A program made the translations under genes and the position numbers. From Roseburia hominis (GTDB lineage: Bacteria > Bacillota > Clostridia > Lachnospirales > Lachnospiraceae), in assembly GCA_040702975.1 (NCBI GenBank), contig CP159990.1:2170001-2234000 (forward strand): a stretch of DNA of 64,000 bases, in the 5' to 3' direction. Shown here in pieces: positions 8,014-15,052 of this stretch (position 1 is the stretch's first letter; each line of letters opens with the position of its first letter). The notes below the pieces were generated by a model that saw only the letters and a program-made list of their open reading frames with translations, was not told the origin of the DNA and made no database searches.

Positions 8014-8480
8014 ATGACATATGATTGCTTGATCATAGACGATGAAAAGCTGCTTGCAGACAGTACTGCCGAATATTTCAATTTGTTTGGCGTTAAAACT
8101 GCGATCGCATATAGTGTTTCAGATTGCAGAGATTTTTTCAGGGAAAACACAGCGGAACTGCTTTTACTTGATATCAACCTCGGTGATGGCAGTGGTTTTT
8201 CGTTGTGCAAAGAACTTCGGGAGACCACCGAAATCCCCATTCTCTTCATTTCAGCGCGAACGAGCGATGACGATCAGATTATCGCGTTCAGTATAGGCGG
8301 TGATGATTATATACAAAAGCCTTATTCTCTCAGCGTCCTCTTGGCAAAAGTCAAGGCGGTACTGAAACGGTACGGAAGCAAGAGTAAAGAGAGGTACGCT
8401 GACGGGCGTTTGACTGAGGATTTTAATGCGAGGCAGGTTCTTGTAGACGGAACCTCTGTAAAACTGACATCGCTTGAATA
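8014..8480 (+). pseudogene. OmpR-type response regulator, truncated in the DNA-binding domain
   Basis: The receiver domain is intact (IIDDEKLLADST, phospho-acceptor in LLLDINLGDGSGF, conserved lysine in DDYIQKPYSL). The winged-helix domain starts (LTEDFNARQVLVDG, VKLTSLE) but stops after seven residues of its normal LT-x-x-E motif. At 8476-8480 the sequence switches directly into the C-terminal part of an FtsX-like permease in another frame. The product would be a 155-residue protein without DNA binding, so this is best read as a deletion remnant. Confidence 0.85.
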
Positions 8481-8840
8481 ATAGCTTTCGTTCTGTACCT
8501 GCTTGTGCGAACGATGCTGAATAATAAAAATCGTGATTATGGAATTATGAAGGCGCTTGGTTTTACGACAGGACAGCTGATTCTGCAAACAGCGTTGTCA
8601 TTCATGCCCACGACCATTTTAGCTATCGTGGTTGGGCTTATCGTATGCAGCCAGATCATTAATCCGCTGACCGCATTATTCTTAAGTGGTATCGGAATCG
8701 TAAAATGCACGTTTACCGTTCCAATCGGATTTACCATAGCTGCGGGTATCGGTCTCGTATTATTTACTTTTGTGGTGGCGTGCCTGTTATCTTTGAAAAT
8801 CAGGAAAATTGCTCCGAGAGCATTGCTTTCAGGAGAATAA
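8478..8840 (+). pseudogene. C-terminal fragment of an FtsX/MacB-type ABC permease
   Basis: The open frame from 8478 reads through a membrane segment, then the FtsX hallmark NRDYGIMKALGFTTGQLI, two more hydrophobic segments and a typical end, KIRKIAPRALLSGE. Only the last 120 or so residues of a permease of 400-800 residues remain. The missing 5' part, together with any sensor kinase and ATPase gene, would lie in the deletion between the response regulator and this fragment. This is the gene order expected of an antimicrobial-peptide-sensing two-component/ABC module. Confidence 0.85.
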
Positions 8841-9051
8841 AAAGTGAGTTCTCGTGTTTAAACTTTATTTGTCGTATTTTTAATGAACGCCCGGTTCCTC
8901 CTACGTTAACTAATCATTAATGAACTGCTATTTTTCATTGCCGGGTCCCCCTGATTTGTGTTATGGTAATAAGTAGAGAACAGGGGGGACGACAAGCGTA
9001 GCGTACCCTCTGAGCTACCATGAAAAGTGAGTCCAAGGAGACAGCCAAGCC

Positions 9052-10755
9052 ATGAAGCCGAGAAAGAAAATCTATCTGTATATAATCGCAGCCGTATTTC
9101 TGATATACATAGCCCTTTTGACTATTCTTTATTTTTCCGAGTCGTCCAGCGATCACGCCATAATCCGGACCTTTGGCGATGCAATCTGGTATTCTCTGGT
9201 CACGCTGACGACAGTGGGGTACGGCGATCTGATACCGGTAACCCCGCTGGGACATGTGGTGGGAATTATTTTTTTGATTTTGTCCGCCGGGATTATGGTG
9301 ACTTTGCTCGGGGCGGCGGTGTCTTTTCTTACCAGCGAGGGATTGCCATTTCTGCTGCTTCAGTTTCAGCGGCATAAGAATTGGTATTATTTTGCGGATT
9401 ACGGTGTGGAATCCAACACGCTGGCAGCTAATATTTGTAAGGAAGACACAGATGCAGTCATTATATTTGGTGAGAAGAGGAGCGGTCAGAGCGAAAGCCC
9501 CAATTATCCTTGTCTGTTTCTCAGTGCGTCCCCGGACAGAATTGTGGCGCAAAAGAAGAATGTTGGTACGAAGTGCAAGGTCTTTCTGATGAAGGAAAAT
9601 GACATCGGTATGAACAGCCGGGCGGTGAACCTTCACGAATTGCCGGTTGAGGTGTATGCGAGAACGACTAACGGGCAGGATAAGCTATCGGGAAATATTC
9701 ATTTTTTCCATAGCTATGAATGTTGTGCCAGACAGTATTGGAGGTCGAAACCTTTATGCAGGCATGAAAAAACAATCGTGCTCATCGGCTTTGGAAATTA
9801 TGGATACAGCATTCTGGAGCGGGCGATTTTGACCAATATCATCGCCACTGACCAACATGTAGCCTATCATATTTTGAGCGGTCAGTCATACTTAAGTGAG
9901 GGGACGGCAGAGCTTCAGCGCAGAGAGCAGGCAGCTCTAGGGGAGGAAACACCGGATTTGCGTTCCGACAGTGTAGATGAGTTTTTGACACTGCATTATC
10001 GATTGGGAGAATTGTTTTCCATTAATGAAGAATCTGATACAAGAGATTCCCTGATTTTCCATACCGGTTTTTGGGGAGAGAATCGAGAGATTCTTGAAAG
10101 GGCAGACCGGATCATTATCTGTGAAGATGATGAGCAGAATGGCTGGAGTATTTTCTGGAGACTGAATAAGTATTACAGAATCCATGGGCGGATTGATCTG
10201 CGCAGCAGCCGGAGGGCGCCGGGGGTATCGTATTTTGGAACCAATGAAGAAATCTACACCTCCTGGCAGATCATACGGACGGAGCTGAACCGGGCTGCAA
10301 TTACCATCAATGAGATTTTTCGAAGAGCGGTCTCTTATCCAACACTCAGCTGGGAAGAATTAGATGATTTTCACAGGCAGTCCAAGATCGTGGCGGCGGA
10401 CCACCTTCTGATGAAGGTGCGGATTCTGCTGGGTGATGAGACGATTACGGAGCTTACGGATTCGTCGATGGAGAAGGCATATGCCAGGTTTAGGCAGAAT
10501 GTTGTCTCAGAGGAGGCAAGAGAGGAGTATCGTAAGCTGGATCATATGCGGTGGCTTCGGTTCTATACCTTTTATAATTGGAGTTATGGCCCTGTCCGTG
10601 ACGATGCGAAGAGGCAGCACCCGATGTTGTGCAGGTATGAAGAACTGACGCCGGAGCAGAGGAAAGAGCGTGATGCAGCATGGGAACTGCTGGGGAGTAT
10701 GGTGCAGATGGACGAGGAACGTTCGCAAGGGAATTTACAGATCGATAAATCATAA
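9052..10755 (+). CDS. Two-TM potassium channel with Rossmann-like and RyR domains
   Basis: A 567-residue protein. TM1 covers about residues 7-28; a pore helix with the potassium selectivity filter TVGYGD is at 54-59; TM2 is at about 66-90. The cytoplasmic part has a TrkA/RCK-like start (KTIVLIGFGNYGYSILERA, about 239-257), a middle region of unclear fold (RIDLRSSRRAPG), and a C-terminal RyR-type domain at about 490-545 (LDHMRWLRFYTFYNWSYGP, then HPMLCRYEEL). RyR domains outside eukaryotic calcium channels are sparse and their ligands are mostly unknown; a nucleotide-like or metabolite ligand gating potassium flux is my inference. AAGGAG lies 11 nt before the ATG. It stands alone between a decayed ABC gene and a toxin-antitoxin locus, a typical accessory location. 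Confidence 0.85.
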   Translation: MKPRKKIYLYIIAAVFLIYIALLTILYFSESSSDHAIIRTFGDAIWYSLVTLTTVGYGDLIPVTPLGHVVGIIFLILSAGIMVTLLGAAVSFLTSEGLPFLLLQFQRHKNWYYFADYGVESNTLAANICKEDTDAVIIFGEKRSGQSESPNYPCLFLSASPDRIVAQKKNVGTKCKVFLMKENDIGMNSRAVNLHELPVEVYARTTNGQDKLSGNIHFFHSYECCARQYWRSKPLCRHEKTIVLIGFGNYGYSILERAILTNIIATDQHVAYHILSGQSYLSEGTAELQRREQAALGEETPDLRSDSVDEFLTLHYRLGELFSINEESDTRDSLIFHTGFWGENREILERADRIIICEDDEQNGWSIFWRLNKYYRIHGRIDLRSSRRAPGVSYFGTNEEIYTSWQIIRTELNRAAITINEIFRRAVSYPTLSWEELDDFHRQSKIVAADHLLMKVRILLGDETITELTDSSMEKAYARFRQNVVSEEAREEYRKLDHMRWLRFYTFYNWSYGPVRDDAKRQHPMLCRYEELTPEQRKERDAAWELLGSMVQMDEERSQGNLQIDKS

Positions 10756-10775: not shown

Positions 10776-11039
10776 TCATTGGTTATCCAAAATCTGCATC
10801 ATTTCTGTGGGTGTAACAATAAAATCTTGAATAGGATAATGTTTTTGATTGCCAGTTATAAGATACGCATTTTCATTACGTTTTTCCATGGCTACTTCGT
10901 AAAATATTAAATCATCCATATCTATCAGGATTTCACCCGTGGGCTGCGGGAAAACTTCAATACCAAACTGCTTAATAGCATGCAATACGAGAAGTGCTGA
11001 GATGATTACATTTGTGTCAATAACCGCACAACATTTCAT
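10776..11039 (-). pseudogene. PIN-domain toxin with an internal deletion
   Basis: The 87-residue product starts like a PIN toxin (AVIDTNVIISALL, first catalytic Asp at residue 8) and ends like one (IEVFPQPTGEILIDMDDL, AYLITGNQKHYP, FIVTPTEMMQIL). Relatives of this RelB-linked family are about 135-145 residues; the middle block of roughly 50 residues carrying the second conserved acid (normally an E in an E-x-x-x-E-Y helix) is missing, in frame, near VLHAIKQFG. It overlaps the antitoxin gene by 4 bp. I expect loss of RNase activity, but the antitoxin-contact region may remain. Confidence 0.8.
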
Positions 11040-11341
11040 TCTTGTACCGCCTTTCTTGCAGCACGCGCGTCAGCGATTTCTGCGTTGATTTCTTCTAATG
11101 TCATTTCTGGTACGTCAGATGCCTGTCTGCGCAGCATAGAAATGGCATTCAGCGCGTCAGTTCTGGTAATAGTAGTTTCTGGTAACGTTGCTTCAAAAGG
11201 TAATCCGCGCACCTGTTTTGAACGTGTCATAAACATGCGGAATGCCGTAGGTAAATCCATACCCAAAGCTTCATAGATTTCTGCCACTTCCTGTTTCAAA
11301 GCTTTATCTGCACGAAATTGAATTAGTGTTTGTTCCTTCAT
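11036..11341 (-). CDS. RelB/DinJ-family antitoxin
   Basis: A 101-residue protein with the ribbon-helix-helix start of the DinJ/RelB family (TLIQFRADKALKQEVAEIYE, then LPTAFRMFMTRSKQVRGLPF) and an acidic toxin-binding tail (EMTLEEINAEIADARAARKA). It precedes the PIN-type gene with an ATGA overlap, the usual antitoxin-toxin order, and probably autoregulates the operon. AAGGAGGGC lies just upstream of its ATG. Its first 22 codons and promoter are duplicated on the far side of the neighbouring insertion sequence. Confidence 0.9.
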   Translation of the reverse strand: MKEQTLIQFRADKALKQEVAEIYEALGMDLPTAFRMFMTRSKQVRGLPFEATLPETTITRTDALNAISMLRRQASDVPEMTLEEINAEIADARAARKAVQE

Positions 11342-11489
11342 AAAAAGCCCTCCTTAACATAGAAACATACATATGAATGTGTTATGCATGTGTTTATCTT
11401 AAGTTTATTATATGCAATAAATACAAAGATATCAAGAGATGAAAAAAATAAAACAAACACTTGATTTTTTGGGAGCAGAGTGCTATATT
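11276..11489. repeat. Left copy of the 214-bp direct repeat flanking the IS
   Basis: This stretch (start of the antitoxin gene plus its upstream region) is identical by eye to 13490-13703. Between the copies lies the 2.0-kb insertion sequence, so the pair is best explained as an unusually long target-site duplication. Confidence 0.9.
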
Positions 11490-11505
11490 CCCATCTTTGA
11501 CAGTA

Positions 11506-11551
11506 AAAATCCGTAGATTGCTGTAAAATCAAGCTTTCTACGGATTTTTTT
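11506..11551. terminator. Hairpin at the left end of the IS
   Basis: AAAATCCGTAGA (11506-11517) pairs with TCTACGGATTTT (11537-11548) and is followed by T on both strands (longer on the plus strand). It would stop transposase transcription and may also insulate the element from outside transcription. Confidence 0.7.
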
Positions 11552-11577
11552 GTTGTTCAAAATGTAGCTATATATTA

Positions 11578-13353
11578 TTACTTTTTCTTCTTTGAGGCTC
11601 GTATTATTTTCCTCATATTTACATCAGTTATGATTTGATAATCGGTACGGAATCCGGCTGTTTCGTGTAGTCTGTCCGTCAGATCCGTCCTTGTATAAAC
11701 GGGTGTGTACCCCAGTTTCTCACCGGGGCGGGCCATCATCATGTTCTTTAAAGTATCTATGATTTCCTCACATGTATAGGCTTCTTTGAGTTCCTTTTCC
11801 AGAATCCTGTAGATAACAAGTGCTATAAAACAAGTGATGAAATGGGCACGGATATGGTCTTCTGTCTGAAGGTATACGGGGCGGGCCCTGAATTCCGTTT
11901 TCATGACCCGGAAACATTCTTCAATCTCCCAGCGCTTCTTGTTGATTCTTACGATCTCTTCTACACTCATATCATCCAGGTTCGTGCATACAGCATAGAA
12001 ACCATCATAACGTTCTTCTTCCCGGATTGCATCTGTATTAAGATACACGATCTCTTCTGAGCAGACTTCTCCATCTTTGGTTGCTTTCTCTCTGGAGATA
12101 AATCTGTGCGGGTCATTCTGGTTCTTGGGACGCTGTTTATACTTCCCATCATTAATAAGCTGCTGTGCACGCTCGACCTGCCCGTTCCGGATCTTCCTCT
12201 GATAAGCTTTATATTTTGGAGAAAAAGAAACGACCAGATGTTGTTCTAATGGCTGGGCTCCTTTTTTGATCTTCCGTTGGGAGAGGTCCTCTTTGATCCA
12301 GCGATCCTTATAAAAAATGTTTTTATAATTCTTTGCTTCATCGATCTCGTTGAGATTAAAGGTTTCATCAGAACCTGGCAGGTGCCATCCGTCTGGATCA
12401 AGTGCAAAATCCTTGAGATAGTCAGGCAGCTGTTTTATGGATTGTATGGTAATAAAACTACGGAGCTGTACACCATTAATCTTTCTGTCATTGAACTTCC
12501 GGTTTGTCTTGGAAGAAAGCCCTGCATCTGTACAGACGATGATCTGGTCAAGTCCGTAATCGCGGAGTACTTTTTGCTCCAGTGGTTTCAAAGTGGGCTG
12601 TTCATTTTTGTTTCCGGGATAAATATCGAAGGCCAGCGGAATGCCGTCGTGATCCATGAACAGTCCCATACCAACGATAGGGAGGGGCTGGTGCTGTTTG
12701 GATTTTCCATAGCGGCGCAGATCATCTGCCTCTTCAATCTCAAAGAAGTAATTCGTACAGTCATAATAAAGGACATCTTTCCTGCGTTCGCAGACCTTCT
12801 GGCTGTTTTTATAAAGCTGTGCCTGTATAAGATCATTTTCTTCCGAAAGGACAGAAAGGGTCCTGTAGATGTCATGCAGTTCGAATGTGGGCTGCTCAAT
12901 AAATTTCGTGGCCTGTCTGTTGGAGGACAGTTTTGAAGATGGATAAAGAATTCTTGTATAAATAAGCTTCGAAAGGACATCATTCAAATCATAAGCAAAA
13001 GAATGACGGGAGGAAATATCCCTGCATATTTTGTCCAGCCCCAAACTATAATAAATGTTCTGCAGGAAGAGATAACCGCAGTTAAAAAGCTTCTGTTCAT
13101 TTTTCTTCAGGAGCTTTGAAGGAGAATAGCTGATAAGGATTTCTTTGTTCTCATCATACTCTTTGCGATTTAATTCATTGACATACTCCTGTGCCCATAC
13201 ATAGGGATCCTTACCACCGGCTTTTGCGGTGACTTCTGTCAGGTTGCCAAGTTTTTCAACTGTGACAGTGGTCACACGGCCATCTGGTTTTCGGATTGTT
13301 TTCTGTACATAAAAGGATGCAGAATTTTTCGATTTGCTTACTGTAAGTTTCAT
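11578..13353 (-). CDS. IS1634-family transposase
   Basis: A 591-residue protein beginning MKLTVSKSKNSASFYVQKT, with GGAGG 9 nt before the ATG; a longer version starting at 13362 has no better site. The DDE catalytic core is visible: the first Asp in VLYYDCTNYFFE (about 200), the second in IIVCTDAGLSSK (about 279), and the Glu in RWEIEECFRVMK (about 480). The IPLAFDIYPGNKNE segment is typical of this family. The reading frame is intact, so the element may be active. It sits upstream of the toxin-antitoxin operon in the same orientation. Confidence 0.93.
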   Translation of the reverse strand: MKLTVSKSKNSASFYVQKTIRKPDGRVTTVTVEKLGNLTEVTAKAGGKDPYVWAQEYVNELNRKEYDENKEILISYSPSKLLKKNEQKLFNCGYLFLQNIYYSLGLDKICRDISSRHSFAYDLNDVLSKLIYTRILYPSSKLSSNRQATKFIEQPTFELHDIYRTLSVLSEENDLIQAQLYKNSQKVCERRKDVLYYDCTNYFFEIEEADDLRRYGKSKQHQPLPIVGMGLFMDHDGIPLAFDIYPGNKNEQPTLKPLEQKVLRDYGLDQIIVCTDAGLSSKTNRKFNDRKINGVQLRSFITIQSIKQLPDYLKDFALDPDGWHLPGSDETFNLNEIDEAKNYKNIFYKDRWIKEDLSQRKIKKGAQPLEQHLVVSFSPKYKAYQRKIRNGQVERAQQLINDGKYKQRPKNQNDPHRFISREKATKDGEVCSEEIVYLNTDAIREEERYDGFYAVCTNLDDMSVEEIVRINKKRWEIEECFRVMKTEFRARPVYLQTEDHIRAHFITCFIALVIYRILEKELKEAYTCEEIIDTLKNMMMARPGEKLGYTPVYTRTDLTDRLHETAGFRTDYQIITDVNMRKIIRASKKKK

Positions 13354-13489
13354 GGCAAACACCTCCTAATCCTTATTATACCACATATAGCTACAAATAG
13401 CCACAACAAAACGAATAAGATTTGACAAAAAAATACAGGCTTTATGGGGCCTGCAAGTACTTTTTCCATTATTTAACTGTCAAACTCCC

Positions 13490-13555
13490 GATTTCTGCCA
13501 CTTCCTGTTTCAAAGCTTTATCTGCACGAAATTGAATTAGTGTTTGTTCCTTCAT
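13490..13555 (-). pseudogene. Duplicated 5' fragment of the RelB/DinJ antitoxin gene
   Basis: The first 22 codons of the antitoxin (start codon at 13553-13555) are repeated here and then run into the right end of the insertion sequence. Transcription from the duplicated promoter would enter the IS toward the transposase gene. Confidence 0.85.
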
Positions 13556-13703
13556 AAAAAGCCCTCCTTAACATAGAAACATACATATGAATGTGTTATG
13601 CATGTGTTTATCTTAAGTTTATTATATGCAATAAATACAAAGATATCAAGAGATGAAAAAAATAAAACAAACACTTGATTTTTTGGGAGCAGAGTGCTAT
13701 ATT
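13490..13703. repeat. Right copy of the 214-bp direct repeat flanking the IS
   Basis: Same sequence as 11276-11489. It ends 7 bp before the tRNA-Arg gene. It carries a second copy of the antitoxin promoter region. Confidence 0.9.
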
Positions 13704-13710
13704 AAATATT

Positions 13711-13782
13711 GTCTCTGTAGCTCAGTGGATAGAGCACCGCCCTCCGGAGGCGGGTGCGTCAGTTCGATTCTGATCAGAGACG
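13711..13782 (+). tRNA. tRNA-Arg (anticodon CCG)
   Basis: A full cloverleaf can be drawn: acceptor GTCTCTG/CAGAGAC, D-stem GCTC/GAGC, anticodon stem CCGCC/GGCGG with loop CTCCGGA giving anticodon CCG, T-arm with loop TTCGATT, discriminator G at 13782. The 3' CCA is not encoded. The 214-bp repeat ends 7 bp upstream. Confidence 0.93.
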
Positions 13783-13784
13783 TC

Positions 13785-13821
13785 AAAAGAGCACGTACAG
13801 TTCATTCTGCCGTGCTCTTTT
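13785..13821 (+). terminator. Terminator downstream of tRNA-Arg
   Basis: AAAAGAGCACG (13785-13795) pairs with CGTGCTCTTTT (13811-13821), 11 bp with a 15-nt loop. Confidence 0.75.
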
Positions 13822-13824
13822 GCG

Positions 13825-13940
13825 TTGCCATGCATCCCTGAGCGCCCAGTGGATGTTCATCCCGGTTGCCAAGTATACCTGAAATAAGGTCCGGCAGATC
13901 TTATGCCAGCTGCCTGGTATGCCTGAATGAAGGTTCATTA
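13825..13940 (+). repeat. Dispersed palindromic repeat, copies B1-B3 in tandem
   Basis: Three related units follow one another. B1 (13825-13866) begins TTGCCATGCATCCCTGAG and has the core at 13839-13859. B2 (from 13866) begins TGCCAAGTATACCTGAAA with a variant core ATAAGGTC...GATCTTAT. B3 (from about 13910) begins CTGCCTGGTATGCCTGAATG. They fill the gap between the tRNA terminator and the next gene. Confidence 0.7.
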
Positions 13941-13944
13941 GTCG

Positions 13945-14790
13945 CTAATCCAGCATTCGTTTTTCTTTCCCGCTGTAATAATATACATGTTCCGATAAAA
14001 CTTCTGACGGCTCCAGTTCATTCGCATTGACTTCCTTTACCATGACATCGAGCTGCGTGCGTCTGATGCCGTGGCTTTCGGGAATCAGAATCACTTCGTG
14101 GATACTGCTGGGCAGGATATAGAAATTCTCACCCAGCATCTCATATGCGTGTTCCAGGGCGTTGGGGTAGAGAATCGCGGCGGCTCCCAGGCTGCGAGCG
14201 TTGTTTGTGAGGATGTGCAGATGTCCGACCATCGGGTACATGGAGAGTGGAAGAAGGTGAGGAGTGTTCCTGCGCGCGGCTTCTGCTACCTCCTCCTGTG
14301 CCACATTCCAACGGTGCAGATGCTCGTTGCGGACGGTAAGCGTGGCATCACCAAAATCAGTGTTCTCGAGCAGAATGTAATATACCACCGCAAGATCCAG
14401 GTAGTCATCATGGGGAACCTGATCAAGAAGCTGACGGTTCGTCGTCTTCTGAATGAGCTGATAGCAGATCTTGTCCTTCACTTTTGGAAAAGACAGGATA
14501 TTCTCGAAGGGATAAGAGTTCTGTACCTTGACCTTCTCATAAATATTACGGACGACCTGCACCAGAGCGGGAATCTCCGTTCCGCCCAGATAACGGCTGT
14601 AGAATTCCTCCATATAAATCGTGGGTGACATATTGATTCCTTTCTGCATCAGAACGAGACCAATCTTGCGCGTGCTGTTGTTCTTCATCGTTGTATGCAG
14701 CTCCACCTGCACTTCCGGCTGCATCTGTTCCCGGACTTCCCGCTGCATTATCTCTACAAACTGAATATAAGTCATATCTCTTTTTTCCAT
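13945..14790 (-). CDS. DUF5688-type protein, function unknown
   Basis: A 281-residue soluble protein without signal peptide or membrane segment. It resembles the DUF5688 proteins found in many copies in Lachnospiraceae genomes: a Y-x-x-F start (MTYIQFVEIMQREV), the NNSTRKIGLVL segment, SPTIYMEEFY, a PHDDYLDLAVVYYILLE block and a late ILPSSIHEVILIPE block. Biochemical role is unknown. AGGAAGGAGATTAT precedes the ATG. It is a single gene between the repeat cluster and efp and reads in the efp direction, but the efp terminator separates them. Confidence 0.75.
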   Translation of the reverse strand: MEKRDMTYIQFVEIMQREVREQMQPEVQVELHTTMKNNSTRKIGLVLMQKGINMSPTIYMEEFYSRYLGGTEIPALVQVVRNIYEKVKVQNSYPFENILSFPKVKDKICYQLIQKTTNRQLLDQVPHDDYLDLAVVYYILLENTDFGDATLTVRNEHLHRWNVAQEEVAEAARRNTPHLLPLSMYPMVGHLHILTNNARSLGAAAILYPNALEHAYEMLGENFYILPSSIHEVILIPESHGIRRTQLDVMVKEVNANELEPSEVLSEHVYYYSGKEKRMLD

Positions 14791-14933
14791 ATAATCTCCT
14801 TCCTGTCACGCCCCAACAAAGGAAATATGATTTGAACAAACATATCTGTATATCAGGTATGTGAGTCGATTATAATGCCAGATGCCTCACTTTTTCAACT
14901 ACTTTTTTTATCAGTCAAAATGTTTTTGACACG

Positions 14934-14974
14934 CAAAAAAACCGGAATCACGGGGGTTATACGCAATTCCGGCT
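14934..14974 (-). terminator. Rho-independent terminator of efp
   Basis: Read on the minus strand, GCCGGAATT and GATTCCGGT form a stem followed by TTTTTTT, about 80 nt downstream of the efp stop codon. Confidence 0.8.
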
Positions 14975-15052
14975 CATTTGTCCGTATTATTTTTGTGAAA
15001 TATAGCTAAAAAATAGCCCGTTTTTCACTTTCAAAATAAGACCCGTATACGC

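Follow-up and report, generated by a model that had tools for sequence, protein, structure and literature searches.

We report here that a gene of Roseburia hominis, probably a gut bacterium, located at positions 9052..10755 (+ strand) of the window (i.e., the whole stretch of 64,000 nucleotides that was analysed), encodes a 567-aa protein in which a K+ channel pore is followed by two RCK domains and a C-terminal RyR module. We consider it probable that an adenine nucleotide belonging to the ADP-ribose/NAD family, sensed by the RyR clamshell, gates this K+ channel, and that the channel is related to others linked to TIR genes.

Anatomy and conservation of the channel protein

The open reading frame is intact and is preceded by AAGGAG (9035..9040), a likely ribosome-binding site read off the sequence, with the ATG 11 nt downstream; this and all features described below lie on the + strand. 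Pfam analysis identified the ion channel domain PF07885 at residues 15-94, above cut-off, and in a sequence search residues 8-89 matched K+ channel pores in the PDB. The first membrane helix, at residues 3-31 (9058..9144), was recognised from the structure model and PF07885, and the second, at residues 65-104 (9244..9363), from the structure model. The selectivity filter TVGYGD lies at residues 54-59 (9211..9228). Conservation was assessed in 120 listed proteins, i.e., that of the window and 119 relatives, among 708 found; VGYGD was present in all 120, and T54 in 117. The filter and the two membrane segments described in an earlier note on this DNA were thereby confirmed.

The structure model contains two RCK Rossmann domains per chain, recognised by fold, at approximately residues 110-235 (9379..9756) and 239-400 (9766..10251). 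The second carries the glycine motif IGFGNYG, in which G246 and G251 are present in 120/120 listed proteins and G248 in 116/120, such that the Rossmann-like nucleotide-type motif of the earlier note was found to sit in this domain. The same note had proposed a search for TrkA_N/RCK, of which the RCK part was borne out by fold, whereas Pfam returned no TrkA_N sequence match to the channel protein. For the body of the channel, the first ten Foldseek rows were occupied by GsuK (PDB 4gx0-4gx5), a dual-RCK K+ channel of Geobacter sulfurreducens. GsuK has two membrane helices, a K+ filter and two RCK domains per chain in common with the window channel, but identity is 11-13% and TM-scores are low in these ten rows, and the window channel, unlike GsuK, bears a RyR module after its second RCK. 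GsuK is reported to be activated by ADP and NAD+ (PMC3510474). The gating rings of the plant proteins CASTOR/DMI1 showed 8-12% identity to the window channel in the Foldseek rows, CASTOR being described as a Ca2+ channel (PMC6697748).

Within the second RCK lies an insertion of ~30 residues (~277-308; 9880..9975), evident from alignment gaps and from the low confidence of the model, with pLDDT below 50 at residues 279-285 and 297-305. The insertion keeps the frame, stands opposite a gap in all 23 other rows of alignment A1 and is missing from all 119 other listed homologues. Comparison with six relatives indicated purifying selection on the channel gene (pN 0.16-0.21, pS 0.70-0.82, with synonymous sites near saturation), and in the same comparison the pore, RCK and RyR parts were similarly constrained. 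Because of this selection, we regard the channel gene as a working gene amid decay. Its surroundings are decayed at 8014-8840 and 10776-13362 of the window, with a receiver domain lacking an output domain and an FtsX fragment upstream, and RelB and PIN remnants and an IS1634-type transposase downstream.

The RyR module and its putative ligand pocket

By fold, the Repeat12-like RyR module spans residues 402-558 (10255..10725). Its PF02026 core, at residues 488-553 (10513..10710), scored 30.5 bits, the cut-off being 27.4; residues 487-563 matched RyR Repeat12 chains in the PDB by sequence, and the C-terminal model matched RyR Repeat12 structures along nearly its entire length, i.e., it adopts the helical clamshell fold. 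The earlier claim of a K+ channel with a C-terminal RyR domain was hence upheld by PF07885 and PF02026 matches above their cut-offs and by the matched RyR fold, both the significance of the PF02026 match and the predicted fold having been named beforehand as checks on the C-terminal part. Fold similarity of a modelled module would by itself prove no function. No other RyR domain was found in the 4.26 Mb genome, and the same search gave matches in 0/14 control genomes.

Animal RyRs have in common with the window protein the fold of the C-terminal module, PF02026 and the position of an adenine-stacking Trp. They are, however, Ca2+ release channels with chains of ~5,000 residues, whereas the window protein is a 567-aa K+ channel, and the first half of the window module escapes PF02026. 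W501 (10552..10554) aligns with the adenine-stacking Trp of RyR1, residue 882 of the PDB chain, which we take to be human W881. Structural work reports RyR3 Repeat12 solved with ADP and AMP-PCP, closure of the RyR Repeat12 clamshell upon ligand, and stacking of the RyR1 Trp on adenine (PMC12627627).

A further comparison is offered by RyDEP, a phage RyR-domain protein reported to cleave 2'/3'cADPR, with H75, W78, H100 and D117 as its ligand contacts (PMC13232231, a 2026 preprint). According to the same preprint, 6/8 phage homologues tested bind 2'/3'cADPR. We aligned the window protein via gp81 of the Mycobacterium phage Baudelaire (L266:2875-3285), which is annotated as hypothetical and carries Q54, H75, W78, H100 and D117, numbered as in published RyDEP. 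The gp81 gene is flanked by phosphoribosyl pyrophosphate transferase and nicotinate ribosyltransferase genes, an NAD-salvage-like operon that fits the NARP1 operon of RyDEP, and gp81 was taken as a very likely RyDEP orthologue. RyDEP-type H75, W78 and H100 fell opposite H498 (10543..10545), W501 and H523 (10618..10620) with a constant offset of 423. D541 (10672..10674) is a possible counterpart of D117, the two standing opposite each other only if the preceding loop is one residue longer; MAFFT pairs D117 with R540. Both H523 and D541 are invariant in the 120 listed proteins, while position 498 is His in 111 and Tyr in nine, and position 501 is Trp in 110 and Gly, Ser or Ala in ten; these substitutions and the loop shift at D541 count against the reading that we favour. 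RyDEP and the phage RyR-domain proteins therefore share three, possibly four, pocket positions with the window protein, but they are small and without a channel part, whereas the window module is channel-borne.

The nucleotide-derived ligand that the earlier note had guessed at appears well supported by the conserved pocket and, by analogy, by the binding of cADPR isomers by phage RyR proteins and the RyR3 nucleotide structures. The sensor role could nevertheless rest on the RCK domains alone. It seems to us highly improbable that the RyR module serves to clear a nucleotide, whether by enzymatic action or as a sponge, in the manner of phage RyDEP proteins, with the channel as no more than its membrane anchor. 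Although the catalytic H75 of RyDEP is matched by H498, and D117 perhaps by D541, the Tyr replacements at position 498 argue against this, as do a pore and RCK domains under constraint equal to that of the RyR module and the report that other phage homologues tested do not cleave despite high conservation (PMC13232231).

Related clades, partner proteins and TIR genes

In a tree of 37 rows, rooted at midpoint, the window protein fell within a solo clade of 18 rows (support 100/100). Next to it came ten pore-bearing channels, whose grouping was loosely resolved, while nine pore-less proteins were set apart (100/100). At 9/10 loci of the pore-bearing sister group, five of the ten being among the matches listed by a genome contig scan, the channel gene adjoins that of a partner, a membrane protein of ~600-720 aa with an EHxRW-type RyR motif (e.g., L042:7335-9251, L045:10909-12939, L041:6759-8582, L083:2659-4530). 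TrkA_N matches to the partner were weak and below cut-off, in 2/4 scanned. In alignment A3, the partners and the pore-less RyR-RCK proteins (L046-L048) display membrane helices and a P-helix-like stretch with no TVGYGD, this stretch containing M[YF]LGRN in 4/7 aligned partners. Judged from these sequences, both look like former K+ channels.

TIR genes were found within 3 kb at 4/10 pore-bearing sister-group loci (L041, L084, L085, L086), 4/14 pore-less loci (L046, L047, L275, L276) and 2/4 loci of another RyR type (L255, L256). Six, later eight, of the TIRs found went into the TIR profile; those of L275 and L276 were weak with this profile and were confirmed by Pfam. At L085 the order is TIR-LRR, channel and partner, each junction being a 4-nt overlap; at L041 it is partner, channel and TIR, with the TIR ORF beginning 2 nt past the channel stop; at L086 it is channel, partner and TIR; and at L084 the TIR gene runs on the opposite strand. 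The TIRs are fused to LRR, Sel1, TPR or MORN repeats, others having propeller matches below cut-off, and at L047 an nSTAND1 NTPase sits between the TIR and RyR genes. The W(V/C)xxE motif holds the catalytic Glu of TIR NADases; it was present in 5/8 TIRs checked and lacking in those of L046, L255 and L256.

Several further observations were made at these loci. A STAND-like NTPase, scoring just under cut-off, lies ~5 kb from the pore-less RyR-RCK gene of L048, and L047 and L048 also hold TIR-Sel1 or Sel1 proteins. At L255:6828-9534 and L256:6163-8841, the gene of a RyR protein of 575-578 aa without a channel match ends 4-14 nt ahead of a TIR-LRR gene, which we label a second kind of TIR-RyR pair. 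The 871-aa PQQ-propeller neighbour at L083, where a TIR was perhaps lost at the contig end, was not counted as a TIR locus, as its blastp comparison with the TIR proteins of L041, L084, L085 and L086 gave no match.

Using 283 TIR_2 matches in 299 genomes, with 3 Mb assumed for each, the chance of at least four TIRs in ten loci over a 5.5 kb span was estimated at ~2e-9, or 2e-5 if TIRs are tenfold clustered, figures that are a guide only because the loci were non-randomly drawn. TIR_2 was also present in 12/13 non-solo carrier genomes versus 139/299 genomes of the family (hypergeometric 6e-4), a result that overlaps the locus count because 5/12 of these carriers have TIR_2 adjoining the RyR gene. 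Carriers were found by searches of differing thresholds, and one genome, G058, carries both solo and non-solo types.

No TIR or partner was found near any of the 19 solo loci. For TIR, the comparison is 0/19 solo versus 10/28 other loci (p 0.003), or 10/33 (p 0.0086) or 10/36 (p 0.010) when left-out loci are added, p values that are optimistic because the loci are related (L243-L246, for instance, share one genus code) and non-randomly drawn. Of the loci left out, five are those of partner-like proteins (L250, L251, L252, L260, L261), with no TIR by profile and, at L261, a DUF4062 neighbour; the remaining three (L257-L259) hold other RyR proteins. The contigs of L038, L082, L083, L268 and others end near the gene, so that an absence recorded there gives a lower bound on what the locus holds. 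Within the 64 kb window the profile detected no TIR, and the window genome had no match to PF13676, PF08937, PF01582 or PF18144 (three TIR families and SMODS), each of which matched at least one of the 14 control genomes. A search of this genome that had no positive control did not find the partner. A TIR acting in trans for the solo clade was considered and rejected, TIR_2 being present in 4/10 solo hosts, two of them weak, which is close to the background of 139/299.

A channel lying beside a partner, and sometimes a TIR, fits an immune effector in the sister group. The arrangement resembles Thoeris in that related clades have a TIR gene adjoining a possible nucleotide-sensing effector; a TIR gene beside the effector, as in Thoeris, is found at 4/10 sister-group loci and is missing at the window. 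The Thoeris effector ThsA is, however, described as a SIR2-SLOG NADase (PMC10022894), whereas the window protein is a K+ channel without a TIR. Since no TIR or partner was found near the solo loci or, with the families tried, in the window genome, the TIR link is not transferable as fact to the window gene. Our tentative proposal, which we would not yet favour, is that RyR-gated K+ channels form a class of bacterial immune effectors, in which a cADPR-type signal from a sensor-TIR would be read via Repeat12 by a heteromer of the TVGYGD subunit and the filter-less RyR-RCK partner; the window channel would then be a detached solo form, and animal RyRs would share the module.

Distribution, possible functions and significance

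Full-length loci numbered at least 20 (at least 15 of them solo) in at least 19/397 genomes judged from named relatives to be Lachnospiraceae, these counts being lower bounds as the scan scored up to three candidates per genome. The single sampled congener, G232, is without the channel gene. The channel gene is accessory, with flanking genes that vary between loci. Among 57 neighbours at 14 solo-clade loci, no Pfam family occurred more than twice (among 25 of 91 families listed). PADLOC matched 27 families in the same neighbours, none more than twice (among 25 of 27 listed), with strong single matches to PDC-S01 (1.9e-66) and mad3 (6.2e-43), and the channel protein itself had no PADLOC match. 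A defence island around the window gene was rejected on these grounds, the protein being unmatched and the neighbour matches scattered. The earlier note had inferred a defence role from location: the decayed flanks are real, but location is weak evidence for the window gene with no recurrent neighbour families at solo loci, and a defence link draws its support instead from the related clades in which RyR proteins adjoin TIR genes.

Mobile carriage was likewise rejected. Of 211 viral-contig matches, the best 80 span the pore or little more, and among 72,556 plasmid records nine matched, none spanning 80% of the query. Separately, an AAA-ATPase-like family was observed near three solo channels (L032:9221-10933; L039:10559-12433 and 13359-14981; L079:4510-6243), with PF09820 in 2/57 solo-clade neighbours; it may be merely a common mobile gene.

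Two other functions were weighed for the window channel. The first is that of a metabolic, GsuK-like K+ channel without a part in immunity, to which NAD+, ADP or ATP at the RCK domains, and also at the RyR module, would signal the energy or redox state of the cell. GsuK, which occupies the first ten rows in Foldseek, is activated by ADP and NAD+ (PMC3510474), structures of RyR3 Repeat12 contain ADP and AMP-PCP (PMC12627627), solo-clade neighbours are mostly ordinary genes (among 25 of 91 families listed) and no solo locus has a TIR nearby; we nonetheless think this reading rather unlikely, given the patchy spread of the gene, its absence from the congener and the TIR genes adjoined by related clades. 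The second is that of a solo anti-phage effector, with NAD breakdown by host or phage raising an ADP-ribose-type signal that opens the channel, such that K+ loss arrests the infected cell. Consistent with this are the accessory character of the gene with its locus-specific flanks, the repeat-bearing TIRs and nSTAND1 NTPase beside relatives, and the reported ability of phage RyR proteins to eliminate or sequester signals of this kind (PMC13232231). The PADLOC results for the protein and its neighbours speak against it, as does the window genome, in which a signal-making enzyme was not found among the four families tried, and we regard this function too as doubtful.

For the nucleotide-gated channel that we favour, we infer the oligomer, ligand class, coupling, gating direction and outcome as follows. 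The protein would conduct K+ selectively and, to judge from the rest of its family, as a tetramer, in which the two RCK domains may build a GsuK-like gating ring. The ligand of the Repeat12-like clamshell would be ADPR, an isomer of cADPR, or ADP/NAD+. Closure of the clamshell would move the ring and open the pore, whereupon K+ would leave the cell and growth would be checked. In clades linked to TIR genes, the TIR enzyme would supply the signal. As the solo clade has no neighbouring TIR, its signal must come from elsewhere, perhaps from a non-neighbour source such as an NAD-breakdown product of infection or stress.

The channel, RCK and RyR parts and TIR signals are each already known. As judged by titles and abstract starts, the literature searched showed no bacterial RyR K+ channel or TIR-RyR channel system, but a 2025 preprint by Yirmiya on TIR systems (reference 8 of PMC13232231; doi 10.64898/2025.12.03.692087) may contain one, so that novelty in print is not established. 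The window copy itself stands alone, but some of its distant relatives are TIR-linked and so suggest a testable trigger. If the TIR link is true, a K+ channel would join the outputs of TIR immunity, and there would be a further reason for phages to carry RyR proteins. The 2026 preprint states that its result supports studying the action of cADPR on RyRs through Repeat12 (PMC13232231); a small bacterial channel with a Repeat12-type module on a simple K+ pore offers a tractable one-protein model for ligand binding and gating.
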